A DNA stretch of 64,000 nt, taken from the NCBI GenBank assembly GCA_002840905.1, contig PHDD01000001.1, forward strand, positions 124,001 through 188,000, written 5' to 3'. Below are positions 36,707 to 58,241 of the stretch, one piece after another. The notes beneath the pieces were generated by a model. That model made no database searches. It had not been told where the DNA came from and saw only the letters and a list, made by a program, of their open reading frames with translations. Numbering within the stretch: position 1 is the stretch's first letter; each line of letters begins with the position of its first letter. The position numbers and the translations under genes were made by a program. Origin of the DNA: Bacteroidetes bacterium HGW-Bacteroidetes-4 (GTDB taxonomy: Bacteria; Bacteroidota; Bacteroidia; Bacteroidales; SZUA-534).

Positions 36707-37002
36707 ACGAGATAATGCAAGCCCTCCTGAATCTATCAGGCGATATAAAGGAATTGAAAGTCCAACTACAACAATTTAAGAAAACAAGGGCAGATAAGTT
36801 CCAAGATGAATGGATAGATGGGCAAGACGTTATGCTTGCCCTCAATATCAGCAAACGAACATTGCAAACCCTTCGGGATGGCAATGTTCTGCCCTATTCC
36901 CGTATCAATGGCAAATTTTATTACAAGGTTTCTGATTTAGAAGAACTATTGGCAAACAACTATTCGGGTAACTCTAATAAATCAGGAAGCTATGGAGATT
37001 AG
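36703..37002 (+). CDS. Helix-turn-helix domain protein
   Basis: WIDGQDVMLALNISKRTLQTLRDGNVLPYSRINGKFYYKVSDLEELL; ATGA overlap with preceding gene. Confidence 0.85.
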   Translation: MNEIMQALLNLSGDIKELKVQLQQFKKTRADKFQDEWIDGQDVMLALNISKRTLQTLRDGNVLPYSRINGKFYYKVSDLEELLANNYSGNSNKSGSYGD

Positions 37003-37921
37003 GGAAAAAGATATACTCGATAAAACACATTATGGATTAAATATTTACTCCCATGTGTTACGCCAATATTATTCGGATGAAGTTGTAATTCACCTATCCG
37101 GCAAGCAATGTAAGCCCGCAAAGAATCCTTTTAAAGACAATACAGAAACTCTTAATATTTATAATAATAATTGGGTATTTGTTTATGAGGATTTTAGCGA
37201 CCCGGATTTTAATGGCAATCCCTTTTCATTCGCTTCGCTTCATTACAAACTTACTGGACAGGAGCTTTTACAAAAGCTAAACGAAGAATTGCATTTACGC
37301 ATAGGTCAGCAAAACAATTTCTATGGGAACAAACGCTCGGCGTTTATTCCTAATAAAGAAATGCAACAAGAACCGATTACAGTTCCTGTATTCAGTTTCT
37401 ATAAATCTCCTGTGCGAAATATACAACCTGCCTATAATATTAATGTGATTGAAGCTTACAACCTTATAAAAAGTAGTGATTATAAAAGAACGACCGAAGA
37501 ATTAAGGGCAATTAATGATAAAACTGAAGCTCGTAATTACAAAGCAAATCATTTCGATTATGTAACCTTTTCGGGAATATTCACCAAACGAAACGATAAA
37601 GCTTTACAAGCTCATTCTGGACTGATTACAATTGATTTCGACCACATTAAAGACCTCGTAAAGCTCAGAAAAGCTTTACTTCTGGATGAATATTTTGATA
37701 CTGTGCTAATATTCGTTTCACCATCTGGCGATGGTTTAAAATGGATTATTCCCATTGATTTGGCTAAAGCAAATCATCAGGAATATTTCAAAGCGGTATC
37801 AAACTACATACAGCAAACTTACAATTTAGAAGTTGACAAGTCCGGGAAAGATATTTCCCGAGCTTGCTTCCTTCCTTACGATAAAGATGTTTTCATAAAT
37901 CCAAAATATTTGCAACAATGA
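36992..37921 (+). CDS. BT4734/BF3469-type protein (VirE N-terminal-like domain)
   Basis: HFDYVTFSGIFTKRNDKALQAHSGLITIDFDHIKDLVKLRKALLLDEYFDTVLIFVSPSGDGLKWIIPIDL. Confidence 0.82.
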   Translation: MEIREKDILDKTHYGLNIYSHVLRQYYSDEVVIHLSGKQCKPAKNPFKDNTETLNIYNNNWVFVYEDFSDPDFNGNPFSFASLHYKLTGQELLQKLNEELHLRIGQQNNFYGNKRSAFIPNKEMQQEPITVPVFSFYKSPVRNIQPAYNINVIEAYNLIKSSDYKRTTEELRAINDKTEARNYKANHFDYVTFSGIFTKRNDKALQAHSGLITIDFDHIKDLVKLRKALLLDEYFDTVLIFVSPSGDGLKWIIPIDLAKANHQEYFKAVSNYIQQTYNLEVDKSGKDISRACFLPYDKDVFINPKYLQQ

Positions 37922-39648
37922 CAAAAAAAGAATTCAATCCAAACGATTGGCTTAAGGATAAACAACCCAACATACAATTTGAAACAACAACAGAAAACAC
38001 AGTAAAAGAAGTTAACAATCAGAAAGATAATGACATTGAAGAAATACTACAAAGAGTAGAAGCTAAAAGTATTGACATTGCCAACGCTTACAGCGATTGG
38101 CGGGATATTGGCTTTGCTTTTGCCGATGAATTTGGAGAATCAGGAAGGGAGTATTTCCACCGTATTAGTAGATTTTATGCCGATTATTCAGCCGCTGTGT
38201 GCGATAAACAATATGACAAATGCCTTAAAGCACATGGCAATGGTGTTACCATTAAAACCTTTTTCCATTTAGCAAAGTCGGCTGGTGTTAATATTAAAAC
38301 TACCGTATCAAAGGAAGAATCGGATGAAACCAGACTTTACAACACACCACCTTTGCCAGCGGAAGTATATGCAAATTTACCCGAGATACTTAAAGAAAGT
38401 ACCGACTTGTTTCAGGATAACATTGAAAAAGATGTTTTTTTAGTGGGTGCAATATCTGTCATTGGTGCCTGTTTACCGAATATTGAAGGAATCTATTTTA
38501 ATGAACCACATTCGGCTCACCTTTACTCATTCATTACTGCTCCTGCAGGTTCAGGGAAAAGTAAACTAAAATGGGCAAAATACTTCGGTTCTATTATTCA
38601 TGAAACGATAGTTGAAACCTCAAAGAAAGATAAAGCCTGTTTTGAGAGCGAATTAGAGCATTATAATAACCTGTCAAAGAAAGAGCGGCAAGATACTGAA
38701 CGCCCGCAAGAACCACCCCAAAAGATGTTCTATATCCCTGCCAATAGTAGTTCCCCTGCATTCATTCAAGCCTTATCCGATAATAATTTTTGTGGGGTAA
38801 TCTTCGAAACAGAAGCGGATACGTTAGCCAATACTTTTAAACAAGAATGGGGTAATTTTAGTGATGTTTTACGCAAAGCATTCCATCATGAAAGTACCAA
38901 TATGTTCAGGCGTAAGGATAATGAATACATTGAAATTAAAGACCCTCATTTGGCAATTGCATTAAGTGGCACACCCCGTCAAGTTCACAATCTAATGCCG
39001 GATGTTGAAAATGGCTTATTCAGCCGCTTTCTTTATTATGCTTTCGAAGACCACACAGAGTTTAAAAATCCTTTCAAATCGTTTCGCCCGGTTAATTACC
39101 TGGACTTCTTTACCGAAAAAGGAAACCAGATATTTGAATTATACAATCAGCTAAACCGATTACAAAATCCAATATCATTTGAGTTAACCGAAGCTCAAGG
39201 CGATGAATTTACCAAGGTATTTAACGAAATGCTTTCACGTAACAAACTCTTACTAGGTCGTGATTTTGAAGCCAATGTAAAACGTTTGGGATTGGTAACT
39301 TTCAGAATTGCCATGATATTAACTGCATTAAGAATACTTGAAAACGGGGATTTATCCAATCCCCTTATTTGTAGTGATACCGATTTTAATTCAGCCCTTA
39401 AATTGGCTACTACATTAGAAAAACATGCGATTGCTGTTTACCAAAATTTACCAAACAATGAATTGAAAGGAATAAAACAGAAATACTATGAGGCTTTACC
39501 GGAACAATTCGACAGGCAGACCTATTTGAAGGTAGCGGAAGACATGGACATAAAACCAAAGACAGCAGAGAAGTACATTACTCAATTCAAAAAAAGCCTG
39601 TTAACTCACGAACACAACAGCTATGCAAAAGTTAAAAGCGGAAAGTAG
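37918..39648 (+). CDS. DUF3987-type P-loop protein with PriCT-2-like N-terminus
   Basis: SWRDIGFAFADEFGESGREYFHRISRF-like N-terminal segment; FITAPAGSGKSKLKWAKYFGSIIHE Walker A; DUF3987-like layout (VFETEADTLANTFKQEWGNFSDVLRKAFHHE). Confidence 0.8.
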   Translation: MTKKEFNPNDWLKDKQPNIQFETTTENTVKEVNNQKDNDIEEILQRVEAKSIDIANAYSDWRDIGFAFADEFGESGREYFHRISRFYADYSAAVCDKQYDKCLKAHGNGVTIKTFFHLAKSAGVNIKTTVSKEESDETRLYNTPPLPAEVYANLPEILKESTDLFQDNIEKDVFLVGAISVIGACLPNIEGIYFNEPHSAHLYSFITAPAGSGKSKLKWAKYFGSIIHETIVETSKKDKACFESELEHYNNLSKKERQDTERPQEPPQKMFYIPANSSSPAFIQALSDNNFCGVIFETEADTLANTFKQEWGNFSDVLRKAFHHESTNMFRRKDNEYIEIKDPHLAIALSGTPRQVHNLMPDVENGLFSRFLYYAFEDHTEFKNPFKSFRPVNYLDFFTEKGNQIFELYNQLNRLQNPISFELTEAQGDEFTKVFNEMLSRNKLLLGRDFEANVKRLGLVTFRIAMILTALRILENGDLSNPLICSDTDFNSALKLATTLEKHAIAVYQNLPNNELKGIKQKYYEALPEQFDRQTYLKVAEDMDIKPKTAEKYITQFKKSLLTHEHNSYAKVKSGK

Positions 39649-39779: not shown

Positions 39780-40070
39780 ATGAAAAGCGTAGAATTTGGA
39801 GCTTATTTAAAAGCACAACGAGAGGATAAAGGTATTCCCCAACGCATAGTGGCACATGCCCTTGATGTTGATACCAGTACCCTGTCTAAGATGGAATTAG
39901 GTGAAAGGCAAATACTAATTTCAATGATAAAGCCCTTGGCTGATGTGTTGGAAATAGAATTTAAAGATTTGCAAATAAAGTATATCACAGAAAAAATCAT
40001 TTCCGAATTAGGTGGGCAGGAATATTTAAAAGAAGCATTAAAAATAGTAGAACAAAAAATTCAGAACTAA
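39780..40070 (+). CDS. XRE-family transcriptional regulator
   Basis: FGAYLKAQREDKGIPQRIVAHALDVDTSTLSKMELGERQILISMIKPLADVLEI; 4 bp before hsdM. Confidence 0.88.
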   Translation: MKSVEFGAYLKAQREDKGIPQRIVAHALDVDTSTLSKMELGERQILISMIKPLADVLEIEFKDLQIKYITEKIISELGGQEYLKEALKIVEQKIQN

Positions 40071-40074
40071 TTAT

Positions 40075-42186
40075 ATGACGACAGAAACTCATCGCCAGAT
40101 GGCGAATTTTATTTGGGATATATGCAATTTACTTCGTGGACCTTATAAAAGAAATGAATACAGAAAAGTAATTCTTCCGCTTACAGTGCTTAGAAGGTTC
40201 GATTGTATTTTAGAACCAACCAAGGCAAAAGCATTAGAAGAATACAACAAAATAAAAGGCAAGCCCGAAAGCATTATAAAGGCTAAAATGGAACAGGTTA
40301 CAGGAGTGAAATTTCACAACCTATCTAAACTTGATTTTTCTACTTTATTAGACGATGCCAACCAGATAGCCCCTAACTTAAACAGTTACATCAATAATTT
40401 TTCATCCAATATTCGTGATATATTCGAGCGTTTCGAGTTTGAAGATGAAATTCGGAAGATGGCTGAAAAGAATATCTTGTATCAGGTCATTAAGAAGTTT
40501 TCAAAGATAGACCTCTCACCTAAAAAGATTGACAATCTACAAATGGGCTATGTTTTTGAAGAGTTAATACGGATAGGTGCTGAACAATCTAATGAGGAAG
40601 CAGGAGAGCATTTTACGCCTCGTGAGGTTATTAAACTAATGGTTGATTTATTGCTTTCTCCCGAAGAAGATTTAGCAGCAGGTTTTAAAGTTAAAAAGAT
40701 TTACGACCCTGCTTGTGGTACAGGCGGTATGCTATCCGAAGCTGAAACTTATCTTAAACAACTAAATGCTGATTCTCAACCTCATTTATACGGTCAGGAC
40801 TGGAACGATGAAGCTTGGGCAATCTGCCGTTCCGATATGTTGATTAAAGGACACGATGAAGAAAGAATAAAACTAGGCGATTCGTTTTCTAAAGATGCTC
40901 ATTCAAAGGAAAAATTCGACTACATGTTGGCTAATCCTCCTTTTGGTGTTTCGTGGAAACAACAAGAAAAATACATTAACCACGAGGCAACTACATTAGG
41001 CTATAACGGAAGGTTTGGAGCAGGTTTACCAAGGGTGAACGATGGTGCTTTGTTGTTTCTCCAACACATGATTTCTAAAATGGAACCAGTGGAAGATGGT
41101 GGTAGCCGTGTTGGCATTGTATTTAATGGCTCTCCTTTGTTCACTGGCGATGCTGGTGGTGGTGAATCTGAAATCAGACGTTGGATTATTGAAAATGACT
41201 GGCTGGAATCTATTGTTGCCTTACCCGACCAGTTATTCTACAATACTGGTATTTCAACATACATATGGATAGTTACCAATAAAAAGGTTAAGGAACGCAA
41301 GGGTAAAATACAACTCATTGATGCACGAAACTTCTGGATACCCATGCGTAAAAGTTTGGGCAATAAACGCAAACAAATTGGCGATGGCGAAGACGGCAGA
41401 CCAAATCAAATAGCAGAAATAACCACTATTTACGGCAATTATAAAAATGATGAAAAACGAACCTTCAAAATAAAGGAAACCGCAAAAGGCGAAGAAAAGG
41501 AAAAAGAACTAGCTGTAAGTAAAATATTTGATAACGAAGATTTTGGCTACAACAAAATTACCATTGAACGCCCTTTACGACTAAATTTTCTGGCTAATGC
41601 TAAACGTATTGCATTATTAGATGCTATTGTAGGGTTTCAGAATATTGCAAGCAGTAAAAAGAAAGACGAAAACGAACGCATTAAGGAAATTGAAGCCGGG
41701 GAATTAAGACAAGAAGTATTAAAGGTAATGCTCAAAGATTTAGGCAAAGCCCATAATGAGAAATTGTATAAAGACCGAAAGGCTTTTTTACTTGACTTGC
41801 GTGCTATTGACCGTAAAAAAGGCATAAAACTTAATTCAGCAGAGCTAAAAGCTATTCTGGATGCCTTAAGCGAACGGGACGAAACAGCAGAAATTTGTAG
41901 AGATAGTAAAGGTAATCCTGAACCTGACCCTCAACTACGCGACACTGAACAAGTACCATTAAAAGAAAGCATTGAAGGATATTTCAAAAGAGAAGTATTA
42001 CCTCACGCACCGGATGCATGGATTGACCATTCTAAAACAAAAATTGGTTATGAGATACCATTAAATAGATATTTCTATGAGTATGAACCGCCTAGAGGCA
42101 TTGCAGTTATTGAAGATGAGTTAAAAGCTTTAGAGAAAGATATATTAAACTTACTTAAATCTGTAACTAAAAGTGAGGAGGTATAA
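40075..42186 (+). CDS. hsdM: Type I restriction-modification system N6-adenine methyltransferase subunit
   Basis: GEHFTPREVIKLMVDLL, KIYDPACGTGGMLSEA, FDYMLANPPFGVSWK. Confidence 0.95.
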   Translation: MTTETHRQMANFIWDICNLLRGPYKRNEYRKVILPLTVLRRFDCILEPTKAKALEEYNKIKGKPESIIKAKMEQVTGVKFHNLSKLDFSTLLDDANQIAPNLNSYINNFSSNIRDIFERFEFEDEIRKMAEKNILYQVIKKFSKIDLSPKKIDNLQMGYVFEELIRIGAEQSNEEAGEHFTPREVIKLMVDLLLSPEEDLAAGFKVKKIYDPACGTGGMLSEAETYLKQLNADSQPHLYGQDWNDEAWAICRSDMLIKGHDEERIKLGDSFSKDAHSKEKFDYMLANPPFGVSWKQQEKYINHEATTLGYNGRFGAGLPRVNDGALLFLQHMISKMEPVEDGGSRVGIVFNGSPLFTGDAGGGESEIRRWIIENDWLESIVALPDQLFYNTGISTYIWIVTNKKVKERKGKIQLIDARNFWIPMRKSLGNKRKQIGDGEDGRPNQIAEITTIYGNYKNDEKRTFKIKETAKGEEKEKELAVSKIFDNEDFGYNKITIERPLRLNFLANAKRIALLDAIVGFQNIASSKKKDENERIKEIEAGELRQEVLKVMLKDLGKAHNEKLYKDRKAFLLDLRAIDRKKGIKLNSAELKAILDALSERDETAEICRDSKGNPEPDPQLRDTEQVPLKESIEGYFKREVLPHAPDAWIDHSKTKIGYEIPLNRYFYEYEPPRGIAVIEDELKALEKDILNLLKSVTKSEEV

Positions 42187-42188
42187 GA

Positions 42189-43499
42189 ATGAACTATCAA
42201 AAATATTTGGATTATAAAGATAGTGGTGTAGCATGGCTTGGTGAAATACCTTCCCATTGGAAAGTAATAAAACTTAAATATATTGGTCACTCAATAATTG
42301 GCTTGACATTTGACCCCGACGAAGTAGTTGATAATGAAGACGAGGGGATACTGGTTTTTAGGTCTTCAAATATTCAAAATGATAAGCTAAGTCTATTAGA
42401 TAATGTATATGTAAATAAAGTAATTCCTTCAAAATTAAAAACTAAAGCTGGTGATATTTTAATATGTTCTAGAAACGGCAGTAGACAATTAATAGGTAAA
42501 AATGCCTTAATTACAGAAGATGTTGAAGGAAACACTTTTGGTGCATTTATGACTTTATTTCGAAGTAAGTATTGGCACTTTTTGTCAAAAGTCTTTCAAT
42601 CCGAAATATTTAGGGCTCAATCAGGTTTGTATCTAACAAGCACCATCAACCAGCTAACAATAAATACCTTAAATAATATTATCGTTCCCCTTCCACCTAA
42701 TGAGGTTGAGCGAAATTATATTTCTAATTTTTTAGATAAGGAAATAACTCATATCGACAACTTAATTGACAAAAAACAAACCTTCATTGAAACCCTCAAA
42801 GAAAAACGTATCTCGATTATTTCACATGCTGTAACAAAAGGTTTAAATAAAAATGTAAAATTCAAGGTGAGTGATATTGAATGGTTGAGTGAAGTTCCTG
42901 AACATTGGGAGGAAAAAGCCCTAAAATATGTCTGCACAATCAATGACCAAACGTTACCTGAGACAACAGACCCTGAATATGAACTAAACTATGTTGATAT
43001 TGGTAGCATTGATAAAACCTTAGGTATTGTAAATAAAGAAAAATACATCTTTGAAGAAGCTCCTTCTCGGGCAAGAAGAATTGTTAAAGATGGAGATATC
43101 CTTGTTTCAACAGTAAGAACCTATTTAAGGGCAATTGCTCCAGTGATTGAACCAGAAGATAATTTAATTGTATCAACCGGTTTTGCTGTGATTAGACCTC
43201 AAAAAATAAATTCGGAGTATTTGTCTTTTTTATTGCGCTCTAAATATTTTGTTGAAAAGGTTGTTTCGATGTCTGTAGGTGTAAGTTATCCTGCAATTAA
43301 TGCTTCTGCTTTAGGAAAAATAAAAATTCCTATACCTGAACAGAAAGAACAAATTCAAATCTCGGTATTTCTTAAGAAAGAATCCTCTTCAATAGATAAA
43401 TTGGTCGAACTAACAGAAAAGCATATAGAAAAACTACAAGAATATAAAACAGCATTAATATCATCTGTAGTAACAGGAAAAATAAAAGTAACTGAATAA
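42189..43499 (+). CDS. hsdS: Type I restriction-modification specificity subunit
   Basis: DSGVAWLGEIPSHWKVIKLKYIG...two target-recognition halves (second: SDIEWLSEVPEHWEEKALKYV), PLPPNEVERNYISNFLDKEITHIDNLIDKK helices. Confidence 0.95.
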   Translation: MNYQKYLDYKDSGVAWLGEIPSHWKVIKLKYIGHSIIGLTFDPDEVVDNEDEGILVFRSSNIQNDKLSLLDNVYVNKVIPSKLKTKAGDILICSRNGSRQLIGKNALITEDVEGNTFGAFMTLFRSKYWHFLSKVFQSEIFRAQSGLYLTSTINQLTINTLNNIIVPLPPNEVERNYISNFLDKEITHIDNLIDKKQTFIETLKEKRISIISHAVTKGLNKNVKFKVSDIEWLSEVPEHWEEKALKYVCTINDQTLPETTDPEYELNYVDIGSIDKTLGIVNKEKYIFEEAPSRARRIVKDGDILVSTVRTYLRAIAPVIEPEDNLIVSTGFAVIRPQKINSEYLSFLLRSKYFVEKVVSMSVGVSYPAINASALGKIKIPIPEQKEQIQISVFLKKESSSIDKLVELTEKHIEKLQEYKTALISSVVTGKIKVTE

Positions 43500-43501
43500 T
43501 C

Positions 43502-44413
43502 ATGAGTGCTGAATTTACAATATCATCTTTAGAAGATTTTTTAGCTGTTATAAAAGACGAACTAAAAATGAAACGCCCATACTATAGAGGGCAATCTAAA
43601 AGAACCATAGATGGTTATCCGCTTATGCCATCCATTGGTCGTTTTAAGCATTTAGCTAAAATGAACCTGGGAGCATTTTACGATTTCGAGTGCAGTACGC
43701 TGGATACCTTTGCCAACCACGTAGTAGGTCAGGTAAACCACTTACCACGCAACGATTGGGAATATTTGGCACTGGCACAGCATCATGGTTTACCTACCCG
43801 TTTTATGGACTGGACAACCAACCCTTTGGTAGCTCTGTATTTTGCTTCGCGAAATGCCAAGCCCAATACCGATAGTGCTGTGTACGTATTAACCAAAGAG
43901 GTTGCCAAATACTCTGAGATTATCCGCAATGGTGAAAACAAACACAAAGAAATTGAGCCTATAGGCGATTTAAGCACGGAAATAACAACCGAAGACGATG
44001 ACCCATACAACGAATTTGCCATTGATGAAAATGAGGAGGATGCAAATACTGGCACTGTGGTAAGTGAAGATGAAACAGATTACAATCTGGTAATAAAACC
44101 AACCAAGTTCGATTTACTTAAAGACGATGTAAAATCGCCTTTCGATATCACACAAAATATTATTTACGACCCAGCCCATGTTTCACCACGTATCAGGGCA
44201 CAAGATGGAGTTTTATTGGCTTGTCATCGCCCGTTAAAACCAATTGACGATACCGAGTATATCGAAATTATTATTAAACACAACAAAAATAACCATCGGA
44301 AAATATGCCACCAGTTAGAGCAATACGGGGTATTCGACAAACAATTATTTCCCGATTTAGATGGTATGGCTAAATGGTTGAAGTATAAAGAATTTGAAAC
44401 GGCAGAACAATAA
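43502..44413 (+). CDS. FRG domain protein embedded in the hsd operon
   Basis: KRPYYRGQSKRTIDGYPLMPSIGRF...WEYLALAQHHGLPTRFMDWTTNPLVALYFAS. Confidence 0.88.
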   Translation: MSAEFTISSLEDFLAVIKDELKMKRPYYRGQSKRTIDGYPLMPSIGRFKHLAKMNLGAFYDFECSTLDTFANHVVGQVNHLPRNDWEYLALAQHHGLPTRFMDWTTNPLVALYFASRNAKPNTDSAVYVLTKEVAKYSEIIRNGENKHKEIEPIGDLSTEITTEDDDPYNEFAIDENEEDANTGTVVSEDETDYNLVIKPTKFDLLKDDVKSPFDITQNIIYDPAHVSPRIRAQDGVLLACHRPLKPIDDTEYIEIIIKHNKNNHRKICHQLEQYGVFDKQLFPDLDGMAKWLKYKEFETAEQ

Positions 44414-44415
44414 CT

Positions 44416-47400
44416 ATGAAAGCAACTACCGAAAAAGCTTTTGAAGCATACATAGAGGAAAGTTTACTTGAAAAAGGTGGCTGGATACAAGGAACCAACA
44501 AAGAATGGGATAAGAAAAACGCCTTGTTTCCAGAACGGATTTTATCCTTTATTAAGGACACGCAAGAAAAGCTCTACAAGAAAATGCAAGACTTGCATGG
44601 CAATGAAGTGGATGAGAAGATAATCGCTACTTTAATTAAAGAAAGGAATATTAAAGGTACGCTTCATATTCTAAGGCACGGCTTTCGCTTTTTCGGGAAA
44701 ACTATTGATATGGCTTATTTTAAGCCTGCTCACAAACTTAATTCAGAAATATTAGAACAATACAATAAAAACCAACTCACAGTTACTCGTCAGGTGTTGT
44801 GTCATACTGTAAATAACGATACAGTTGATTTAGTCTTTTCAATCAATGGCTTACCCATTGCTACTTGTGAATTAAAGAATCCTGCCACAGGTCAGAATTG
44901 GAAAAATGCAATAGCTCAATACCGTAAAGACAGAGATTGGCGTATGCCCCTCTTTAAATTCAAAACTTCTGCTGTTGTCCATTTTGCTGCCGACCCCGAT
45001 GAAATACACATGACTACCCATTTAAGAGGTGAAAAAACATTCTTCTTGCCATTTAATAGAGGTAGCCATCCGGGAGAAGTAAAATGCGGTGCAGGGAATC
45101 CACAACACAAATCGGGGCATCGCACAGCATATTTTTGGGACGAAGTATTACAGCGTGATAGTTTTCTGGAAATTATCGGACATTTTATGTTTCTCGAAAC
45201 CAAAGAAGAAACAAGACTGGACGATAATGGGGTTAAACAAAAATACACCAAGGAAACACTTATTTTTCCCCGCTATCACCAGTTAGATTCAGTAAAAAAA
45301 CTCATTACAGCAAGCCGAGAAGAACGTACGGGATATAATTACTTAATTCAGCATTCAGCCGGTAGTGGAAAAACAAATAGTATTAGTTGGCTTTCGCACC
45401 GTTTGGCAAGTTTACATACCGAAACGAATGATAAAGTATTTGATTGTGTAGTAGTTATAACCGATAGAAAAGTTTTAGACCGCCAATTACAAGATGCAAT
45501 TTATCAGATAGAACATGCTCAAGGAGTTGTAAAAGCCATCGACCAGGATTCAAAGCAATTAGCAGAAGCCTTAGTAGATGGAACAAAAATAGTGATAACC
45601 ACATTACAGAAGTTTCCCTTTGTACTTCGTGGGTTATTGCATGTAGCAGGTGCCGATAATCTGGACAAACCGGATGAAGAATCTGTAAAACAAGCAGAAG
45701 ATTGGAAAGAACAAATATCAAAACGTAATTACGCCATAATAGTTGATGAAGCTCATTCAAGCCAAACAGGAGAAACAGCGAGGGAATTAAAAGAAATTCT
45801 GGGTACTGGCTCCGACAATGGCTCTGATGAAGGAGAGTCTGATTGGGAAGACCGATTAAATCAGGTAATGGAATCAAGAGGTACGCAAAAAAACATTAGC
45901 TTCTTTGCATTTACAGCCACTCCAAAAGGTAAAACACTGCAACTATTTGGCAGAAACGATGAGCCTTTTCATGTTTATTCAATGCGACAAGCAGTACAGG
46001 AAGGTTTTATTTTAAATGTTTTAGAAAACTATACTACTTACGACACTTTCTATAAACTGGTTAAATCGGTTGAAGAAGACCCCGAATTACCTAAAAAGAA
46101 AGCTACAAAAGCTTTAGGTAAGTTCATGAGCCTGCACCCTGTAAACATTGAGCAGCGTACCGAAATAATGGTAGAGCATTTCAGGAATTTGGTAAAAAAG
46201 CGAATTAATGGCAAAGCTAAAGCCATGCTTGTTACCAGCTCTCGTTTACATGCGGTTAAATATATGCTCGCATTTGAACGATATATCGAAAAGAAAAAAT
46301 ACACTGATATTCGCCCTTTGGTAGCATTCAGCGGCAAAGTTTTAGACCCCGATACAGGTATTGAATATACAGAACCGAATATGAATACCGATGTAGTTAC
46401 AGGCAAGCCAATAAGCGAAAGCCAATTGCCTGAAAAATTTGATACACCAGACTTTCAAATATTATTGGTTGCCAACAAATACCAAACAGGTTTCGACCAA
46501 CCGCTTTTACATACCATGTATGTTGATAAACGATTGGATGGAGTACAAGCCGTGCAAACCTTATCGAGGTTAAACAGAATTAGCCCGGGAAAAGAAACCC
46601 CTTTTGTATTGGATTTTGTAAACAGTGCAGAAGATATTTATTTGGCATTCAAACCATATTACGACCAAACTTCCCTGCAAGAAACAACCGACCCTCAATT
46701 ATTGGAAACCATAAAGCATGAATTAAATGCTATGCAGGTTTATTTCTGGTCGGAAGTGGAGGCATTCGCACAGGTGTTTTACAAGGATATTAATAAGCAA
46801 AACCCAACAGACCATGCACGGATGCAAAAACAGGTACAACCTGCAGTTGATAGATATAAAGCATTAGAAGAAGACAAAGCTAAATTATTCCGAGATAAAA
46901 TAAGTTCGTTTGTAAACGCCTATTCATTTCTAAGTCAGATAATCCCTTATGGTGATTCTGATATGGAGATGCTATATAGTTTTAGTCGGTTCTTGCTTCC
47001 TCACCTGCCTCGTGAGCGTGATTATGAAATAATAAAACCCGAAGACGATGTAAGCCTTCAATATTACAGAATTGAAAAGGTTACCTCTGGTGCAATCGTG
47101 TTAGAAGATGGTGAACCTTATGGAATAAAAGGTATAACCGAATCGGGCACTGGCAAAGCAAAAGATGAAAAGAAACCACTATCAGAAATAATCGATGTAT
47201 TGAACACCAAATTCGGCACCGAATTTTCAGACGAAGACCGTTTGTTTTTTGAGCAGATAAAGGAAAAAGCAGTCAAAGATGATAAGATAATACAGACTGC
47301 TGAAGCAAACACACTTGATAAATTCCGTTTGGGTATTAAAAAAACTATTGAAAACCTAATGATTCAACGCATGGCTGAAAACGATGAAATCGTTTCACGC

Positions 47401-47490
47401 TACATGGAGGATATTGATTTTCAGAAAACTGCTTATGATGTATTAGCAAAAGACATTTACGATAAGATACTTAGTGATATAGCCAGATAA
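44416..47490 (+). CDS. hsdR: Type I restriction endonuclease (motor/nuclease subunit)
   Basis: DLVFSINGLPIATCELKNPATGQNWKNA nuclease motif, QHSAGSGKTNSISWLSHRL Walker A, IIVDEAHSSQTGE, LVANKYQTGFDQP. Confidence 0.95.
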   Translation: MKATTEKAFEAYIEESLLEKGGWIQGTNKEWDKKNALFPERILSFIKDTQEKLYKKMQDLHGNEVDEKIIATLIKERNIKGTLHILRHGFRFFGKTIDMAYFKPAHKLNSEILEQYNKNQLTVTRQVLCHTVNNDTVDLVFSINGLPIATCELKNPATGQNWKNAIAQYRKDRDWRMPLFKFKTSAVVHFAADPDEIHMTTHLRGEKTFFLPFNRGSHPGEVKCGAGNPQHKSGHRTAYFWDEVLQRDSFLEIIGHFMFLETKEETRLDDNGVKQKYTKETLIFPRYHQLDSVKKLITASREERTGYNYLIQHSAGSGKTNSISWLSHRLASLHTETNDKVFDCVVVITDRKVLDRQLQDAIYQIEHAQGVVKAIDQDSKQLAEALVDGTKIVITTLQKFPFVLRGLLHVAGADNLDKPDEESVKQAEDWKEQISKRNYAIIVDEAHSSQTGETARELKEILGTGSDNGSDEGESDWEDRLNQVMESRGTQKNISFFAFTATPKGKTLQLFGRNDEPFHVYSMRQAVQEGFILNVLENYTTYDTFYKLVKSVEEDPELPKKKATKALGKFMSLHPVNIEQRTEIMVEHFRNLVKKRINGKAKAMLVTSSRLHAVKYMLAFERYIEKKKYTDIRPLVAFSGKVLDPDTGIEYTEPNMNTDVVTGKPISESQLPEKFDTPDFQILLVANKYQTGFDQPLLHTMYVDKRLDGVQAVQTLSRLNRISPGKETPFVLDFVNSAEDIYLAFKPYYDQTSLQETTDPQLLETIKHELNAMQVYFWSEVEAFAQVFYKDINKQNPTDHARMQKQVQPAVDRYKALEEDKAKLFRDKISSFVNAYSFLSQIIPYGDSDMEMLYSFSRFLLPHLPRERDYEIIKPEDDVSLQYYRIEKVTSGAIVLEDGEPYGIKGITESGTGKAKDEKKPLSEIIDVLNTKFGTEFSDEDRLFFEQIKEKAVKDDKIIQTAEANTLDKFRLGIKKTIENLMIQRMAENDEIVSRYMEDIDFQKTAYDVLAKDIYDKILSDIAR

Positions 47491-48886: not shown

Positions 48887-49933
48887 ATGAAAGAGATATT
48901 TAGCAAACGGCTCAAAAGTGCCAGAATTTTGGCAGCCCTTTCTCAAGACCAACTGGTGGAGAAAATGGGGAATGTTGTGTCTAAAAATGCTATCTCTAAA
49001 TACGAAAAAGGTCAAATGATGGCAGACAGTACCATTCTGCTTGCCCTATCAAAAGCATTAGATGTTAAACCCGATTATTTTTTCCGTCCGTTTACTGTAG
49101 AAATAGAAAAGGTAGAGTTTCGCAAAAAACAAAGATTGTCGGTTAAAGATGTTAACGCAATTAAGCAAACCGTAACCGATTTTGTGGAGCGATATATTGA
49201 GGTAGAACAATTTTTAAGCATTGCCTCAGCCTTTGTAAATCCTATTCAGGATTTATCTATTTCTAACATTAAAGATATTGATAAAGCAGCATTGCAAGTT
49301 CGCAGCGAGTGGAAAATTGGTTTAAATGCTTTACCCAATGTAATTGACCTTTTAGAGGATAAAGAGATAAAAGTTATTGAAGTAGAAGCCCCTGATGAAT
49401 TTGATGGATTTTCAGGCTGGGCAGATGGCAAAATCCCTATTATTGTAATCAACAAAAACTATAATGTAGAACGCAAGCGTTTAACTGCCTTGCACGAGTT
49501 AGGGCATTTAATCCTTAATCTTAGCGATACCATTTCTGATAAGGAAAAGGAAAGGCTTTGTTTCCAATTTGCCGGGGCTATGCTTATTGCCGAACCTACT
49601 TTTAAATCAGAAATAGGTGATGTTCGTTCCCATTTCTCAATACCTGAATTGGTTGCAGTAAAAGAAACCTACGGTATTTCTATACAGGCAATAATGGCAA
49701 GGGCAAAGGATTTGGGTGTAATTAACGAATCACAGTTTATTTCGTTCCGTAAATGGATTAGCCGCAACCGTACCGAAGAAGGTTTAGGCTCATACAAGGG
49801 TATGGAACAAGCGTTTCGTTTTAAACAATTAATATACAGGGCAGCAGCCGAAGAAGTAATTTCATTAAGCAAAGCAGCCAATTTGTCTAACCTGAAATTA
49901 GCCGAATTTCGCAAAGAATTTGTAGCCCTGTGA
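48887..49933 (+). CDS. XRE HTH - ImmA/IrrE-type Zn metallopeptidase fusion
   Basis: N-terminal SARILAALSQDQLVEKMGNVVSKNAISKYEKGQ (XRE HTH); LTALHELGHLILNLSDTISDKEKERLCFQFAGAML (HExxH). Confidence 0.92.
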   Translation: MKEIFSKRLKSARILAALSQDQLVEKMGNVVSKNAISKYEKGQMMADSTILLALSKALDVKPDYFFRPFTVEIEKVEFRKKQRLSVKDVNAIKQTVTDFVERYIEVEQFLSIASAFVNPIQDLSISNIKDIDKAALQVRSEWKIGLNALPNVIDLLEDKEIKVIEVEAPDEFDGFSGWADGKIPIIVINKNYNVERKRLTALHELGHLILNLSDTISDKEKERLCFQFAGAMLIAEPTFKSEIGDVRSHFSIPELVAVKETYGISIQAIMARAKDLGVINESQFISFRKWISRNRTEEGLGSYKGMEQAFRFKQLIYRAAAEEVISLSKAANLSNLKLAEFRKEFVAL

Positions 49934-50436
49934 AAATAATTGTCAACGATGCAAACATTTTAATAGATTTGGTAGACCTAAAAATCTTACCCTATTTCTT
50001 TCAACTTGAATTTGAGTTTCATACAACGGCTATAATCCTTGATGAACTTTTTGAAGAACAGAAGGAATCCTTGTTTCCTTATATTGAAACAGGCAGTTTA
50101 ATTGTTGACGATATTTCAGACGAAGATTTAATTGAAATCCTTATGATTAGGGCAACTAAGCCCAATCTGTCAGAACAGGATTGTTCAGCCTTTTACCAGG
50201 CACAAAAAGACAACGCAGCCCTTATAACAAGTGATAATACGCTCAGAAAATTTGCACAGGCAAACAATTTGGAGGTACATGGGCATTTATGGGTATTTGA
50301 TAATTTAGTATACAATGAAATTTTAACGGGTATAACTGCAATTAAGAAATTGGAAGAATTATGTAATGTGATAAATCCAAAATTAGGCTTACCCAAGAAC
50401 GAATGTCAAAAGAGAATTAAGTTATGGAGTAAATAA
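49930..50436 (+). CDS. PIN-domain-like nuclease (GTG start, overlaps the ImmA gene)
   Basis: IIVNDANILIDLVDLKILPYFFQLEFEFHTTAIILDELFE...LSEQDCSAFYQAQKDNAALITSDNTLRKFAQ: PIN-type spaced acidic residues; GTGA start/stop overlap. Confidence 0.78.
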   Translation: MKIIVNDANILIDLVDLKILPYFFQLEFEFHTTAIILDELFEEQKESLFPYIETGSLIVDDISDEDLIEILMIRATKPNLSEQDCSAFYQAQKDNAALITSDNTLRKFAQANNLEVHGHLWVFDNLVYNEILTGITAIKKLEELCNVINPKLGLPKNECQKRIKLWSK

Positions 50437-50447: not shown

Positions 50448-52508
50448 ATGTCCGAACAAAATCTATTCTTCAATATACTCACGTTCGATTTTCCTTCGGA
50501 AAACCAAACTTTCTATTTCTCAAAAGAAGACATTGGCAGGAGCCATAAAATCCATAAAAGTATATTTCCAAACGAAATAGATTCATTATTTCCCGGCATT
50601 AGCAATAATTGTACAGATTTTATCTACACAACCTTTTCAGGCGAGCAGGAAGGTTTCGTACCATTAACCATAGATTTTAAAACTGACAATCAGGATTTCA
50701 TTAAGCGATTTTACAACAGACAAATAAACTTCTACTTCCGTAAAATCAAAGAACAAATTGTAAAAGTAGGTTTCATTAAAGAAAATCAGGTTTGGGTGCA
50801 TTCTCCTAAATTAACTACCTCACAATGGAATGTTTACATGAAATTTTCTTTAAAAGTGCAGATTTGTACAGTAAGTAAGTACCCTGAGTTATTAGTTTCC
50901 TACGATGGCACTTCAAAAGTGCTTAAAAAGCCAGTATCAGAATTAATTCAAGAAGTATCACCAACGGCATTCAACTGGGTATTAAAAGAGAATCAGCTTG
51001 AAAAATGGGAAAGAATATCGGAAGAAGATGTACCCGACTATTCGCAATATTACCCTGTATTAAACAGAACTTTACAAACAGCTTTAAATATTCCCACAGA
51101 AGCACCACCAAGAGGTAACAGGTATCCGGAATACCTAAAAAACATAACTGCTTTTTACAATAAATTCCTAAACAAACAGGAGTTTAAAGATATTTTGCCA
51201 ATTCATAAAGACGGATTTTTAAACGTAAGTTCAGCAAGAATCAACAAAACCAATGAAGAAAGCAACTTACTGGTTTTTGGAAGCAACAATACGGGCATAG
51301 TTCCTAAGTTTGGAGTAAGGGATTTTAAGCCATTTAAAGCAAGTCCATACAAGAAAGTTCACCTCTTTTTTATTGTTCACAAGAACGATGCTCAAATGGC
51401 TTTCTCCATAAAAGATTACTTTGAAAAAGGGTTTCAGTGGTTTAAGGGCTTGTACAATTATGCTCATATACTATTTCATACCGAAGATGGTTTTAGCATA
51501 GTCTTTCATGATAAGGACAACCCAATACCAGAAATAGAAAAAAAACTTTCAGAGAGAGAAATAAACCCCGATATAAAATACATAGCAATTTATGTAACAC
51601 CATTTACCAAATACGAACACGATAAGCAGAAAAGAGAAATCTATTATCGTGTAAAAGAAGTGCTACTAAAACGCAATATTACTTCACAAGCCATTGACCC
51701 TACAAAAATTCAGGAACAAGGCGAAGGTTGGGTTTACAGTCTGCCTAACATTGCTGTGGCAATATTGGCTAAATTGGATGGCATTCCCTGGCGATTAAAT
51801 ACACCCATTAAAAACGAACTAATTATCGGAGTTGGTGCATTTAAGCATGTTGAAGATGGGGTACAATATATTGGTAGTGCTTTCAGCTTCTCAAACGATG
51901 GTAAATTCAACAGCTTCGAATATTTCATGAAACATGAAATAGATATTCTCGCAGGTAAAATTTCCAAAGCAGTAAGAAACTATGCCACAATAAACAATCC
52001 ACCGGATAGGCTGATAATACATTTCTATAAAAGCATGAGCGAAGTAGAAGTACAGCATATTGAAAGAGCGTTGGAAACTATGGACTTGCCAATCCCCGTA
52101 TTTATAGTTTCAATCAACAAAACAGAATCAAACGATATTACAGCATTCGATAAAGACTGGAAAGAACTAATGCCGATAAGTGGCACTTATGTAAACATTG
52201 GCAGAAGCAAATACTTACTCTTTAATAACACTCGCTATCCTGACGGTAGCTTTAGTAAAGCCGATGGCTTTCCATTCCCTATAAAACTTAGTATAGATTG
52301 CACCGATAAGGAGCAATTAAGAGATACCAAAGTAATAAAGGAGTTAATAGAGCAAGTCTATCAATTCAGCCGTATGTATTGGAAATCAGTACGACAACAG
52401 AATCTACCAGTAACAATCAAATACCCCGAAATGGTCGCTCAAATCGCTCCCCATTTCGATGGTGATGATATTCCGGCATACGGAAAAGAAAATTTGTGGT
52501 TTTTATAA
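50448..52508 (+). CDS. Long prokaryotic Argonaute (MID-PIWI), apparently catalytically inactive
   Basis: SLPNIAVAILAKLDGIPWRL (PIWI-type N-A-K-G-PW motif), LIIGVGAFKH in place of the usual GxDxS-type strand, RLIIHFYKSMSEVE, terminal QNLPVTIKYPEMVAQIAPHFDGDDIPAYGKENLWFL. 686 aa with N-terminal and L1-like (PELLVSYDGTSKVL) segments. Confidence 0.85.
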   Translation: MSEQNLFFNILTFDFPSENQTFYFSKEDIGRSHKIHKSIFPNEIDSLFPGISNNCTDFIYTTFSGEQEGFVPLTIDFKTDNQDFIKRFYNRQINFYFRKIKEQIVKVGFIKENQVWVHSPKLTTSQWNVYMKFSLKVQICTVSKYPELLVSYDGTSKVLKKPVSELIQEVSPTAFNWVLKENQLEKWERISEEDVPDYSQYYPVLNRTLQTALNIPTEAPPRGNRYPEYLKNITAFYNKFLNKQEFKDILPIHKDGFLNVSSARINKTNEESNLLVFGSNNTGIVPKFGVRDFKPFKASPYKKVHLFFIVHKNDAQMAFSIKDYFEKGFQWFKGLYNYAHILFHTEDGFSIVFHDKDNPIPEIEKKLSEREINPDIKYIAIYVTPFTKYEHDKQKREIYYRVKEVLLKRNITSQAIDPTKIQEQGEGWVYSLPNIAVAILAKLDGIPWRLNTPIKNELIIGVGAFKHVEDGVQYIGSAFSFSNDGKFNSFEYFMKHEIDILAGKISKAVRNYATINNPPDRLIIHFYKSMSEVEVQHIERALETMDLPIPVFIVSINKTESNDITAFDKDWKELMPISGTYVNIGRSKYLLFNNTRYPDGSFSKADGFPFPIKLSIDCTDKEQLRDTKVIKELIEQVYQFSRMYWKSVRQQNLPVTIKYPEMVAQIAPHFDGDDIPAYGKENLWFL

Positions 52509-52521: not shown

Positions 52522-54432
52522 ATGACAATACATTATATATGGATTGGTGAGCATAACAATATAATTGGTCAACCAATAACCCTATCATCAAAGTTTATCT
52601 TTAAAACTGAAATTGCAAAACCTTCAAAAAAGGGTGAAATTACTATTTCTCTAAACCCATCATATATTGAAAATTTCTTTGACAAGCCAAATGTGATGGA
52701 GATATCTGCTATAATTGGCAAGAATGGTTCGGGTAAAACTTCCATTTTGGAATTTATAAAAAGCAATTTTCCTGAAGGCGTTTCCAGTAGAGTAGATGAC
52801 AATACCATTGTGATTTATTCAAACTTCCAAAATAACAAAGAGGTTTTATATGTGGTAAAACCTGATTTTTGGAATATTAAAATCAACAATAGTTCAGGTC
52901 TCGATTGTATAGACAAGGATTACAGCAATGGTGATAATGTAAGTGAAAAATTCAGGTTCTCATCAGGTTTAAGTTATGTGGAATTCTTCTACTACAACTT
53001 TTTCTTAGATTACAAATTTGACATAGCCAATTGGGCAGGTTTAAAAAATATTTCAACGTCAACACTTCTTTGTCAGCCAAGGAAATCTGCGATTGAAGAA
53101 AGGTGGGGTAAACATGGCATAGATAATAAAGAAGCATCTTCTTTTGATTTGGCTTTTCTGATGAATGATGAATTATCCAAAGCAATTCAACTTATTATTT
53201 CAGACAATAAAAAACTAATCCCATTTGCTATACCAGAAATACTCTATATTACAATTTCAGAAACGGATAAAATATATTTCAAACTGAATGATGATTCAAA
53301 AAGCAATCAGCCTTTAAATAAAAAAGTTGATGATTTACTTAAGGAATTAAAAACTGTTAATGATAATTGTAAATCAGAAGAACAAGTATTAAATAATCTT
53401 TATATTTCTATACTCTTAAATTTTCTTGTTACTCAATTCTATTACTCTTCTCCAGTTGTAAATTTTAATTTCGACCTTAGTTTCAAAGGTTATATTTCAA
53501 TTAAGGAGTTCGTTCTTTCATTTTTCAATAAACTAAAAACCACTAAGGTTAAACTTTCTAAAAGTGAGACAGTTGAAAGTGAAAATTTTATTCGACTGGG
53601 TATTTATGTCCCGCAATTTATTGAACAAGTTGAGAAATTCGTTTTTGAGGGCGTATTAACTTTTCACCCGGGTAAAATAAATTATTTTATGCTCCCAATG
53701 TCTCAAAAGGCTGATAAAGATTTTAATACATTTATAAACCTTTACATGAAAATAAAGGGTTTAACAAATTTTCTTGAATTTAATTGGCGTAGCTTAAGTA
53801 CTGGTCAACAATCATTTTTATCTTTTATGTCCCGTTTTTATCATGAAAAGCATCATGCTATTGGGCATGACCAGTTAAATAAAAAGCTTTTTATAATGAT
53901 TGATGAAGGTGATGCTGGTTTTCATCCTGAGTGGCAAAAGAAATTTTTCAATCACAGTTTAAATTTTCTTTCAGACCTTTTTCATGACAATGAAATACAA
54001 CTGGTTTATACTGCCAATTCTCCTTATTTGGTTTCTGACTTAACTAAAAATCATATTACATTTATCGAAAACAAAGAGAATCAAATAATTATACACGGGA
54101 AGGAAAATAATAGAGAAGAAACATTTGGTCAAAACATTCATACATTGCTTTCAAATTCTTTTTTCTTGGAAAGTGGTCTAATTGGTGATTTTGCCAAAAA
54201 TAAAATAAATAAGGTAATTGAGATTCTAAAATCAGAAAACCCAACCCATGTTGAGATTTTTTTTGCAAGAAAAATTATTCAAATGATTGGTGAACCTGTA
54301 ATTAAGAAAAAATTATCAAGCATGTTTGAAGATAATTTCAATATTCCAATTGATATTCAGACAGAAATCGAACAGACAGAAAATAGGTTGAAAAGATTAA
54401 AATCATTCTTAAATAATGATACAAATACATAG
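52522..54432 (+). CDS. SMC/ABC-like ATPase (PtuA/OLD-like defence ATPase)
   Basis: ISAIIGKNGSGKTSILEFI (Walker A), RSLSTGQQSFLSFMSRFY (signature), KLFIMIDEGDAGFHPEWQKKFF (Walker B). ATG at 52522 preferred over the upstream 52459 start, which overlaps pAgo. Confidence 0.88.
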   Translation: MTIHYIWIGEHNNIIGQPITLSSKFIFKTEIAKPSKKGEITISLNPSYIENFFDKPNVMEISAIIGKNGSGKTSILEFIKSNFPEGVSSRVDDNTIVIYSNFQNNKEVLYVVKPDFWNIKINNSSGLDCIDKDYSNGDNVSEKFRFSSGLSYVEFFYYNFFLDYKFDIANWAGLKNISTSTLLCQPRKSAIEERWGKHGIDNKEASSFDLAFLMNDELSKAIQLIISDNKKLIPFAIPEILYITISETDKIYFKLNDDSKSNQPLNKKVDDLLKELKTVNDNCKSEEQVLNNLYISILLNFLVTQFYYSSPVVNFNFDLSFKGYISIKEFVLSFFNKLKTTKVKLSKSETVESENFIRLGIYVPQFIEQVEKFVFEGVLTFHPGKINYFMLPMSQKADKDFNTFINLYMKIKGLTNFLEFNWRSLSTGQQSFLSFMSRFYHEKHHAIGHDQLNKKLFIMIDEGDAGFHPEWQKKFFNHSLNFLSDLFHDNEIQLVYTANSPYLVSDLTKNHITFIENKENQIIIHGKENNREETFGQNIHTLLSNSFFLESGLIGDFAKNKINKVIEILKSENPTHVEIFFARKIIQMIGEPVIKKKLSSMFEDNFNIPIDIQTEIEQTENRLKRLKSFLNNDTNT

Positions 54433-55441
54433 AGACTTCGAAAGTATTGCTAAATGGCATTCACAAAGTGTAATGTCAAATTTTAATTTAGCAAATCTCA
54501 TTAATGGTCATATTATTAACAATGGAACCATTGAAGATAACTTTTTAATTTTTTTAAGCCAAAACCTTGAAGATGTATTATCACTGCACCCAATTCTTTT
54601 AGAAAAACAAATTATTAGTAAAGCAAACTCAATTCTAGGTAATCAATATTTTACAGAAAAAGCAAATAGGCCAAACACTCCTGGTCGCAAACCTCGATTA
54701 AATAAAGTATTTATTGAATTATTAAACTCAATTTTTGATTACGAAAAGTTTTGCAGTTATGGTACTGGATATAATGCTCATTGCTTAACTGAGAAATTAG
54801 AAATAAAAGTCTGCCCTTATTGTAATAGAAACTATATTTCAACTTTAAAGCCGAATAAATCAATAGCAATAGGTAATCAAGGTGGCACACGTCCAACTCT
54901 TGACCATTTCTATTTAAAATCTGATTACCCATATTTAGCATTGTCGTTTTGGAATTTAATTCCATCTTGTTTTTCGTGCAATACTCAGTTTCGAAATACG
55001 AAACATTTTGATATATTTAACAATATTCATCCCTATTTAAATGGTTTTGAAAACTTCCTCTATTTCCAGACTGACATCATTGACATAACGGAATTTATAG
55101 GTAATTCAAATAAGATTTTTGAGCTTGAATTAAAAGAGAATGGTAAAACAATTCAAAATTCATTTAAACTAGAAAAGACTAAAAAGAATAACTTGGTTTT
55201 TAGGCTTGAAGAAATTTACAGTCAGAATCATAAATCTGATGTGAGAGAAATAATACAAAAGGCAATTATTTACGATGATAAATATAGTAAGTCACTCTAC
55301 GACAATTGGTCTGGAATTTTTACCGATGAATACGATGCTCAAAAAATGATGCTAGGCAACTATACAAATATCAAAGATTTTGAAAAAAGACCACTCTCAA
55401 AATTAACTAGGGATATAGCTAATGAATTAGGTTTGATATAG
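54416..55441 (+). CDS. HNH endonuclease-like protein (PtuB-like partner of the ATPase)
   Basis: KVCPYCNRNYIST...RPTLDHFYLKSDYPYLALSFWNLIPSCFSCNTQFRNTKHFD: CxxC..DHF..N..CxxCN HNH architecture; overlaps the ATPase gene by 17 bp. Confidence 0.82.
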   Translation: MIQIHRDFESIAKWHSQSVMSNFNLANLINGHIINNGTIEDNFLIFLSQNLEDVLSLHPILLEKQIISKANSILGNQYFTEKANRPNTPGRKPRLNKVFIELLNSIFDYEKFCSYGTGYNAHCLTEKLEIKVCPYCNRNYISTLKPNKSIAIGNQGGTRPTLDHFYLKSDYPYLALSFWNLIPSCFSCNTQFRNTKHFDIFNNIHPYLNGFENFLYFQTDIIDITEFIGNSNKIFELELKENGKTIQNSFKLEKTKKNNLVFRLEEIYSQNHKSDVREIIQKAIIYDDKYSKSLYDNWSGIFTDEYDAQKMMLGNYTNIKDFEKRPLSKLTRDIANELGLI

Positions 55442-56646: not shown

Positions 56647-56779
56647 CAAAAAACCTTGACAAAACAACCCAGCCCACCTGATACAAGGCTTTCTTTTTTC
56701 TTTTTTTTCGGTTTTTTCTTTTCTCTTTTAAAAATATGTGTGCGAAGCGAAGCAGAGCAAAATTTTAATCGCTCGTACT

Positions 56780-57208
56780 ATGAAAACTTACAACATCAAA
56801 ACTTATCGAAACGGAAATGAAATAATAAAACCTCATTTCTTTATTTTGAACAAGGGGATGAATAGCGGCAAACCGCTTGATATACCTTGTACTAATTGCT
56901 TTACGTTTTCTTGTAGTTCAGAAACTGATAAAGATTTCTATTACTGGTTACTATTCGGTTTATGGCGTACAAAACTATTCCACCCATTTTTGAGAGGCAC
57001 AGTAATTCCTTTTATTACTCTGTCAGATTTGTGTAAATGTATCCAGACAGGTACTGAACACGCAAATCAAGATTTAAAAAGGTTCAACAAACATATTGAA
57101 GCTTTAAAGTTTCTGGATTTGAAGGAAAAGCAATTTCACCAAAATTTACAACTCATTGATGACACCCGAAAGATGATATTTTACGAATATAGAAGGAGGC
57201 AGTTTTAA
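56780..57208 (+). CDS. Bacteroidetes mobile-element-associated hypothetical (DUF6943-like)
   Basis: MKTYNIKTYRNGNEIIKPHFFILNKGMNSGKPLDIPCTNCFTFSC...FYYWLLFGLWRTKLFHPFLRGTVIPFI; family named from memory of the sequence pattern. Confidence 0.6.
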   Translation: MKTYNIKTYRNGNEIIKPHFFILNKGMNSGKPLDIPCTNCFTFSCSSETDKDFYYWLLFGLWRTKLFHPFLRGTVIPFITLSDLCKCIQTGTEHANQDLKRFNKHIEALKFLDLKEKQFHQNLQLIDDTRKMIFYEYRRRQF

Positions 57209-57406: not shown

Positions 57407-58048
57407 ATGGGTAAAATTTCTCAAGGTATCTTAGGTGGTTTCTCCGGCAAAGTTGGAAACGTTATCGGAGGAAACTGGAAAGGAATCGACTACATGAGGG
57501 TACGTCCTGCAAGTGTAGCGAATCCACAAACAGCAGGTCAGGTTGACCAGCGTACAAGGTTCTCAACTGCTTTGCAGTTCTTACAGCCTTTAAAAGGCTT
57601 TATTAAAGTTGGTTTTCGCAATTATGCGATTAAAATGACCGAGTTTAATAGTGCAATGTCCTACAATGTTCAAAATGCAATTATCGGTGATTATCCCGAC
57701 TTCATAATTGATTTTGATGCAGCTTTAGTTAGTAGAGGTGGTTTAACAGCTGCTTTAAACCCTTCGGCAGGTTCTGACCTTGCAGGTTCGGTTCAATTCA
57801 ATTGGGATGATAATTCCATTGATGGGAACGCAAAACCAACTGACCGTGCAATGGTATTGGTTTACAATCCAAGTAGAAATGAAGCGGTATTTGTAACCGA
57901 TGGTTCATTAAGAAGTGCAGGTACACACACTATAACAGTACCAAACATTTATTCCGGTGATAATGTGTTTGCATTTATCTCATTCATTAGTGAAGACGGA
58001 AAACAAGTTTCAAACAGTCGATACATTGGTAGTGTTGTTGTTGCATAG
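57407..58048 (+). CDS. DUF6266-like protein
   Basis: MGKISQGILGGFSGKVGNVIGGNWKGIDYMRVRPASVANPQTAGQVDQRTRF; family named from memory of the sequence pattern. Confidence 0.75.
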   Translation: MGKISQGILGGFSGKVGNVIGGNWKGIDYMRVRPASVANPQTAGQVDQRTRFSTALQFLQPLKGFIKVGFRNYAIKMTEFNSAMSYNVQNAIIGDYPDFIIDFDAALVSRGGLTAALNPSAGSDLAGSVQFNWDDNSIDGNAKPTDRAMVLVYNPSRNEAVFVTDGSLRSAGTHTITVPNIYSGDNVFAFISFISEDGKQVSNSRYIGSVVVA

Positions 58049-58222: not shown

Positions 58223-58241
58223 TTCTGTATAGGAAAGTAAA
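58223..58241 (+). repeat. attR-like site: TTCTGTATAGGAAAGTAAA
   Basis: Second copy of the mnmE 3'-end block; also encodes FCIGK* but has no mnmE upstream. Confidence 0.85.

Follow-up and report, generated by a model that had tools for sequence, protein, structure and literature searches.

The Argonaute encoded in the 64-kb stretch of DNA analysed here (the window) is conserved, has a PAZ domain that is small or missing, and is predicted to bind guides without cutting; it is a core member of a satellite-like element family of Bacteroidota that is inserted at mnmE. We favour, on balance, the view that this inactive long-B Argonaute senses DNA with the help of guides and signals through a DUF6617 protein encoded 14 kb away in the window, the genes that directly surround it being cargo.

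The Argonaute family has lost its catalytic site and kept its guide pocket

The open reading frame of the Argonaute gave a Pfam Piwi match (E 7e-14), and the PADLOC pAgo model PDLC02385 spanned its full length (E 9e-276). An earlier, sequence-only reading had proposed that both expected catalytic Asp residues are replaced, and the two motifs that it quoted, IGVGAFKH and LIIHFYKSMSEVE, were found exactly as given. We placed the DEDX columns according to where the literature locates the catalytic Asp residues (in GxD, and in H-x-D behind the 'IIH' strand), the solved relatives that were aligned being all inactive. In a 65-member alignment, the first catalytic Asp position is occupied by Gly463, a Gly in 65/65 relatives and also in AfAgo (GTG), RsAgo (GMG) and EcAgo (GIG). 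The third corresponds to Tyr527, a Tyr in 63/65 relatives and a Phe in the other 2, so that the proposed double replacement applies to the family as a whole. Such a family-wide loss is explained neither by a sequencing error nor by a recent decay of the catalytic site, which is thereby ruled out. The MID residues Y399, K403, Q414 and K442, which form a YK-type 5'-phosphate pocket (Y-K-Q-K), are invariant in all 65 members, and the C-terminus is mostly conserved in the same alignment. The presence of a dead site in all relatives, together with the invariance of the pocket, indicates that cutting was lost in an ancestor while the guide pocket was retained.

AlphaFold2, given 65 relatives, produced a model (pLDDT 84.2, pTM 0.79) with the domain layout N, L1, L2, MID and PIWI. 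In this model the L1 strand (146-159) and the L2 helix (225-241) are only about 65 residues apart, and the PAZ domain is therefore predicted to be reduced or absent, in keeping with the reduced PAZ that had been suggested. The best Foldseek match of the model was RsAgo (E 4e-25), and the closest solved proteins by sequence were AfAgo, RsAgo and EcAgo, all of the long-B class. These nearest solved relatives, by sequence and by fold, support the assignment to a long-B-like class of inactive pAgos, as initially proposed. By analogy with RsAgo, EcAgo and AfAgo, the guides are probably short 5'-phosphorylated RNAs and the targets DNA (PMC10620215, PMC10954474).

The Argonaute belongs to the core of an element inserted at mnmE

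The end of the host gene mnmE is repeated at 58223-58240, the second-best match to attL between 52000 and 64000 reaching 13/18. This repeat delimits an element extending from 33495 to 58240 (about 24.7 kb), with the Argonaute inside it (Table 1). A Pfam scan of the genes of the window element found no relaxase or type IV secretion genes, and the 64-kb window contained no tRNA genes. The right part of the element comprises a gene-poor stretch (55442-56737) in which a repeat of 39 nt occurs at 56221 and again at 56608 (92% identical); the ends of this repeat resemble an inverted AAAAAATC/TATTTTTT structure.

Table 1. Features of the mnmE element in the window
Feature	Position	Strand	Remarks
mnmE (trmE), tRNA-modification GTPase, host gene	32127..33512	+	3' end is the insertion site; from sequence, C-terminus FCIGK
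attL, left junction, final 18 nt of mnmE	33495..33512	+	TTTTGCATAGGAAAGTAA
HTH_17 (AlpA-like) protein, element core	33727..34095	+
Tyrosine integrase, element core	34092..35186	+
DUF6617 protein, candidate Argonaute partner	35183..36208	+	341 aa; overlaps integrase by 4 nt (ATGA)
HTH_17/excisionase-like protein, element core	36407..36706	+
HTH_17 protein, element core	36703..37002	+
BT4734-like N-terminal (VirE_N-type) protein, element core	36992..37921	+
PriCT-2/DUF3987 primase-helicase-like replication protein, element core	37918..39648	+
XRE-type HTH regulator, element core	39780..40070	+
Type I restriction-modification, cargo	40075..47490	+	HsdM 40075, HsdS 42189, FRG-domain gene 43502, HsdR 44416
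XRE-IrrE-like protein and PIN-domain protein, cargo	48887..50436	+	4-nt overlap; directly upstream of Argonaute
Long-B-like Argonaute	50448..52508	+	intact ORF, 686 aa
Septu-like ATPase (PDC-M62A) and HNH nuclease (PDC-M62B), cargo	52522..55441	+	directly downstream of Argonaute
DUF6943 protein, right-end gene	56738..57208	+
DUF6266 protein, right-end gene	57407..58048	+	adjoins attR
attR, right junction	58223..58240	+	TTCTGTATAGGAAAGTAA; 16/18 match to attL

Relatives of the Argonaute were collected by scanning one genome per species, the best 80 of 176 (38-73% identity) being kept, and gene context was surveyed for 50 relatives on long contigs. A DUF3987 primase-helicase gene was present upstream, on the same strand, in 46/50. 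An mnmE-end sequence preceded DUF3987 by 4.0-5.1 kb in 41 of those 46, and 19 of these 41 also had a copy of the mnmE end past the Argonaute, giving element sizes of 17.6-39.1 kb. As to the relatives without an upstream DUF3987, two loci are cut by contig ends (L044, L069), one has an mnmE end 13 kb upstream, DUF3987 only as a trace and no DUF6617 (L066), and one, L050, is a true exception that lacks DUF3987.

When 393 Bacteroidota genomes were sampled without bias, the same association was found. Members of the Argonaute family proper were present in 7/393, with DUF3987 on the same contig in 7/7. Seven of the 393 genomes encoded an integrase with an identity of 59% or more; six of these had the Argonaute, and the contig of the seventh stops just past the integrase. 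A cousin element with DUF3987 (G198) has DUF6266 and no Argonaute. We rejected a wholly generic mnmE element, as loci L125-L127 of Bacteroidota, where an integrase 43-47% identical is found at mnmE, lack DUF3987, DUF6617 and the Argonaute. In two of these three loci, a different gene overlaps the integrase by 4 nt. The search of plasmids returned only two distant Argonautes, that of phages none, and that of IMG/VR one locus. One genome (G393) has two Argonautes of the mnmE-element family, on different contigs (L004, L044).

DUF6617 is associated with the Argonaute and evolves in step with it

The gene right after the integrase matched the DUF6617 profile in 50/50 cases and, in most elements, overlaps the integrase by 4 nt. 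DUF6617 was also found in additional elements, in which the integrase is different or has diverged or the spacing is slightly altered, and it is kept despite an unrelated or diverged integrase in L010, L051, L053 and G126. Pfam detected DUF6617 in 6/297 genomes, and 6/6 of these also had an mnmE-element Argonaute. The predicted structure, a moderate model (pLDDT 78, pTM 0.57), comprises a helical N-terminus and a separate C-terminal domain; the latter is variable and occurs in at least three sequence types. No PDB match was obtained for the fold of DUF6617, by fold or profile search, and Pfam recognised in it neither a transmembrane nor a TIR, HEPN or nuclease domain. By eye, some C-terminal domains looked similar to RteC, but Pfam (E up to 10) did not back this likeness, which was discarded.

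We compared pairwise distances in the 48 elements in which the four genes encoding the Argonaute, DUF6617, the integrase and DUF3987 were all readable. The correlation was highest between the Argonaute and DUF6617 (r = 0.913), as compared to 0.78 for Argonaute-DUF3987, 0.49 for Argonaute-integrase and 0.43 for integrase-DUF6617. The partial correlation amounted to 0.83 for Argonaute-DUF6617, and to -0.004 for integrase-DUF6617. With the set dereplicated to 30 elements, Argonaute-DUF6617 still had a partial correlation of 0.82 (bootstrap 0.69-0.90). DUF3987 showed a partial correlation with the Argonaute of 0.40-0.50, versus 0.82-0.83 for DUF6617, and the r values of other core genes were 0.32-0.79, the cargo gene HsdM giving -0.04. 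Individual pairs of elements illustrate this pattern. Between the window and L067, the integrase is 86% and DUF3987 64% identical, versus 29% for DUF6617 and 41% for the Argonaute; between the window and L004, the values are 62, 44, 48 and 66%, respectively. Since DUF6617 sits between the integrase and DUF3987, the exchange of a contiguous segment does not explain the pattern that it shares with the Argonaute.

The strongest signal was that between the N-terminal domain of DUF6617 and the N-lobe of the Argonaute (0.89), the C-terminal domain of DUF6617 giving a weaker one. When only the third with the lowest Argonaute identity (below 45%) was considered, DUF6617 gave a correlation of 0.76 versus 0.84 for the integrase and did not stand out. 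The Argonaute and DUF6617 trees share 9 well-supported splits, with 10 and 8 in conflict, and DUF3987 shares 8 with the Argonaute; this comparison of tree splits gives less support to the association of the Argonaute with DUF6617 than does the comparison of distances.

More distant Argonautes were also considered. L101, L102 and L103, from other Bacteroidota, encode Argonautes that are 34-35% identical, without an mnmE element, and all three have a gene of 430-460 aa directly upstream of the Argonaute. The upstream gene of L101 matched the DUF6617 profile with an E of 5e-11 among 1621 proteins, and hhalign gave 96%, with column shuffles reaching at most 0.5%. The upstream gene of L103 is homologous to that of L101; the DUF6617 match of L102 was weak, and L105, the Argonaute of which is 27% identical, gave no DUF6617 match. 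Three outgroup genomes (L101, L102, L105) have only 1-4 copies of DUF6266 each, and in all three a copy is found at 3-5 kb from the Argonaute, which is outside an mnmE element. L104 (9153-12433) encodes an Argonaute of 675 aa (about 33% identical) with a SIR2_2 gene behind it, an arrangement known from BPAS.

The finding that the Argonaute evolves in step with DUF6617 makes the latter a candidate partner and, co-occurrence and co-evolution taken together, it is likely to be the partner. The earlier proposal that the Argonaute needs a partner effector is not supported in its usual, adjacent form, the neighbours being variable, although a candidate partner is encoded elsewhere in the element.

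A model for the Argonaute and DUF6617, and its rivals

Our best reading is that of a two-protein, RNA-guided DNA-sensing module within a satellite-like mobile element, whose binding, type of guide and output we infer. The Argonaute would take up short 5'-phosphorylated guides, probably RNA, and recognise matching DNA from a plasmid, a phage or a rival element, without cutting it. Recognition of the target would be relayed to DUF6617, which may dock by its helical N-terminal domain on the N-lobe of the Argonaute and act via its variable C-terminal domain. The restriction and Septu-like neighbours would be interchangeable cargo, and the output would most likely be defence or superinfection exclusion.

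We considered the possibility that the Argonaute acts alone, in the manner usually ascribed to RsAgo and with no need of a partner from the element, its guided binding to DNA blocking the transcription or replication of an invader or recruiting host nucleases. The close fold match to RsAgo and the lack of a conserved adjacent effector are consistent with this, as are the minimal elements (L005, L013, L018, L021, L031), in which the Argonaute directly follows the small XRE gene and only metal-resistance genes are found behind it. Yet, this explanation, to which we give about one chance in five, leaves the specific co-evolution and co-occurrence of DUF6617 unaccounted for, and RsAgo too has a downstream nuclease gene (PMC10620215).

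A somewhat less probable explanation, though a serious rival to defence, is that DUF6617 serves the excision or regulation of the element and that the Argonaute governs this element, its RNA-guided sensing of a helper phage, a plasmid or a rival element triggering or blocking excision and replication. The two proteins would then form an RNA-guided switch, in which the sensing of incoming DNA is relayed to a protein encoded with the integrase and sets the timing of excision, replication or the exclusion of rivals; for this we see a small chance. To our knowledge, an Argonaute serving as the switch of its own mobile element has not been described so far. DUF6617 may be an element-mobility protein because it overlaps the integrase gene by 4 nt, like iolg of PICMI, a gene found in the same place that is required for excision (PMC10803314). 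The integrase, the HTH_17/AlpA-type regulators and the DUF3987 primase are also common to PICMI (PMC10803314), and the presence of the Argonaute is no less constant than that of the core genes. However, DUF6617 varies independently of the integrase that it overlaps, as its near-zero partial correlation indicates, and it persists where the integrase has been replaced, which would be odd for an integrase accessory.

The genes next to the Argonaute are interchangeable cargo

The model in which the Argonaute signals through DUF6617 regards the neighbouring genes as cargo. In the interval from the XRE gene to the Argonaute, the elements carry type I or type III restriction genes, other genes or nothing. 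In the window, the type I operon includes an FRG-domain gene (43502-44413; PADLOC PDC-S15, E 2e-133) between hsdS and hsdR, and two genes of 149 and 277 aa (47503-48788) lie between hsdR and the XRE-IrrE gene, the 277-aa gene with a very weak PD-(D/E)XK match. Coupling to restriction-modification was rejected: the distances of HsdM and HsdR correlated with those of the Argonaute with r values of -0.04 and 0.30, respectively, and several elements have no restriction-modification genes before the Argonaute. The XRE-IrrE/PIN pair, which looks like a toxin-antitoxin pair, directly precedes the Argonaute only in the window, L002, L003 and L014.

Behind the Argonaute, the defence types include PDC-M62 (window), Orf5/SspE-like, TmtA, PDC-M01/Septu, Mokosh, a type II restriction enzyme, NERD-UvrD and DRT, and in some elements metal-resistance operons replace the defence genes. 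Heavy-metal efflux operons of the CzcA/CusA type are found directly behind the Argonaute in L031, L013, L021, L035 and L128. The neighbours being interchangeable, stand-alone defence or metal modules that change from element to element, there is no dedicated adjacent effector, and the conserved downstream gene typical of BPAN, BPAS and BPAM was not found. It is therefore improbable that the Septu-like PDC-M62 pair is the effector of the Argonaute in the window genome, as in BPAN. This pair is co-directional with the Argonaute and 13 nt from it, with its own ribosome-binding site, and its HNH nuclease would provide a plausible toxic output; against this, the same place is held elsewhere by TmtA, Mokosh, DRT, PDC-M01, NERD-UvrD, restriction genes, metal genes or nothing, and PDC-M62 is catalogued as a two-gene defence candidate of its own.

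Finally, a functional partnership with the VirE_N/DUF3987 genes (og_54 of earlier surveys), which lie upstream of most of the Argonaute relatives surveyed and mark a subclade described by Song et al. (PMC10620215), is very improbable, as an mnmE-element Argonaute is missing from 56/63 of the sampled genomes that have a DUF3987 homologue, the distance to the Argonaute ranges from 0.3 to 17.5 kb, and the partial correlation is lower than that of DUF6617.

Comparison with known systems

The mnmE-element Argonaute resembles RsAgo, EcAgo (BPAN) and AfAgo by the Gly at the position of the first Asp, the Y-K-Q-K pocket and the reduced or missing PAZ. As in BPAN, BPAS and BPAM, an inactive long-B pAgo is expected to signal to another protein. 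The effector of these systems (a nuclease, a Sir2 or a membrane protein) is encoded directly downstream of the pAgo and co-evolves with it (Song et al. 2023, PMC10620215). The mnmE-element Argonaute, unlike RsAgo, EcAgo and AfAgo, has no adjoining effector gene and is fixed in one element family, its candidate partner being encoded up to about 20 kb away. If this is true, searches based on neighbouring genes can overlook partners of Argonautes.

The family probably belongs to the og_54 (VirE-N) subclade of long-B pAgos that Song et al. marked, leaving its function open (PMC10620215). Because VirE-N/DUF3987 genes are common without an Argonaute, their link to it would be mere co-membership of a mobile element, which suggests that the association of VirE-N with long-B Argonautes reflects this shared element and not a partnership. 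For these Argonautes of PMC10620215, we name the non-adjacent DUF6617 as the candidate partner in place of the VirE-N gene. In the Af1317-type effectors of long-B pAgos, a conserved alpha-helical region precedes a variable domain (Manakova et al. 2024, PMC10954474), and DUF6617 is like them in its general layout; it differs in not being downstream of the Argonaute and in lacking any transmembrane, TIR, HEPN or nuclease domain according to Pfam.

SGI1 and MGIVchHai6 also insert at the 3' end of trmE (mnmE) (PMC5704250). They are Proteobacterial elements mobilised by conjugation, with a gene content unrelated to that of the mnmE elements. The latter share with PICMI satellites an integrase, a gene overlapping int by 4 nt, HTH_17/AlpA-type regulators and a DUF3987 primase (PMC10803314), and are satellite-like in this gene content. 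In contrast to PICMI, they are larger (17.6-39.1 kb), occur in Bacteroidota, at mnmE, and carry abundant defence and metal cargo and an Argonaute, and the core of the window element has no Fis regulator, no Fis domain being found among the core genes scanned. We know of no Argonaute in SGI1 or MGIVchHai6. If our reading is true, an RNA-guided sensor is part of the standard outfit of a family of satellite-like elements, beside their exchangeable defence cargo.
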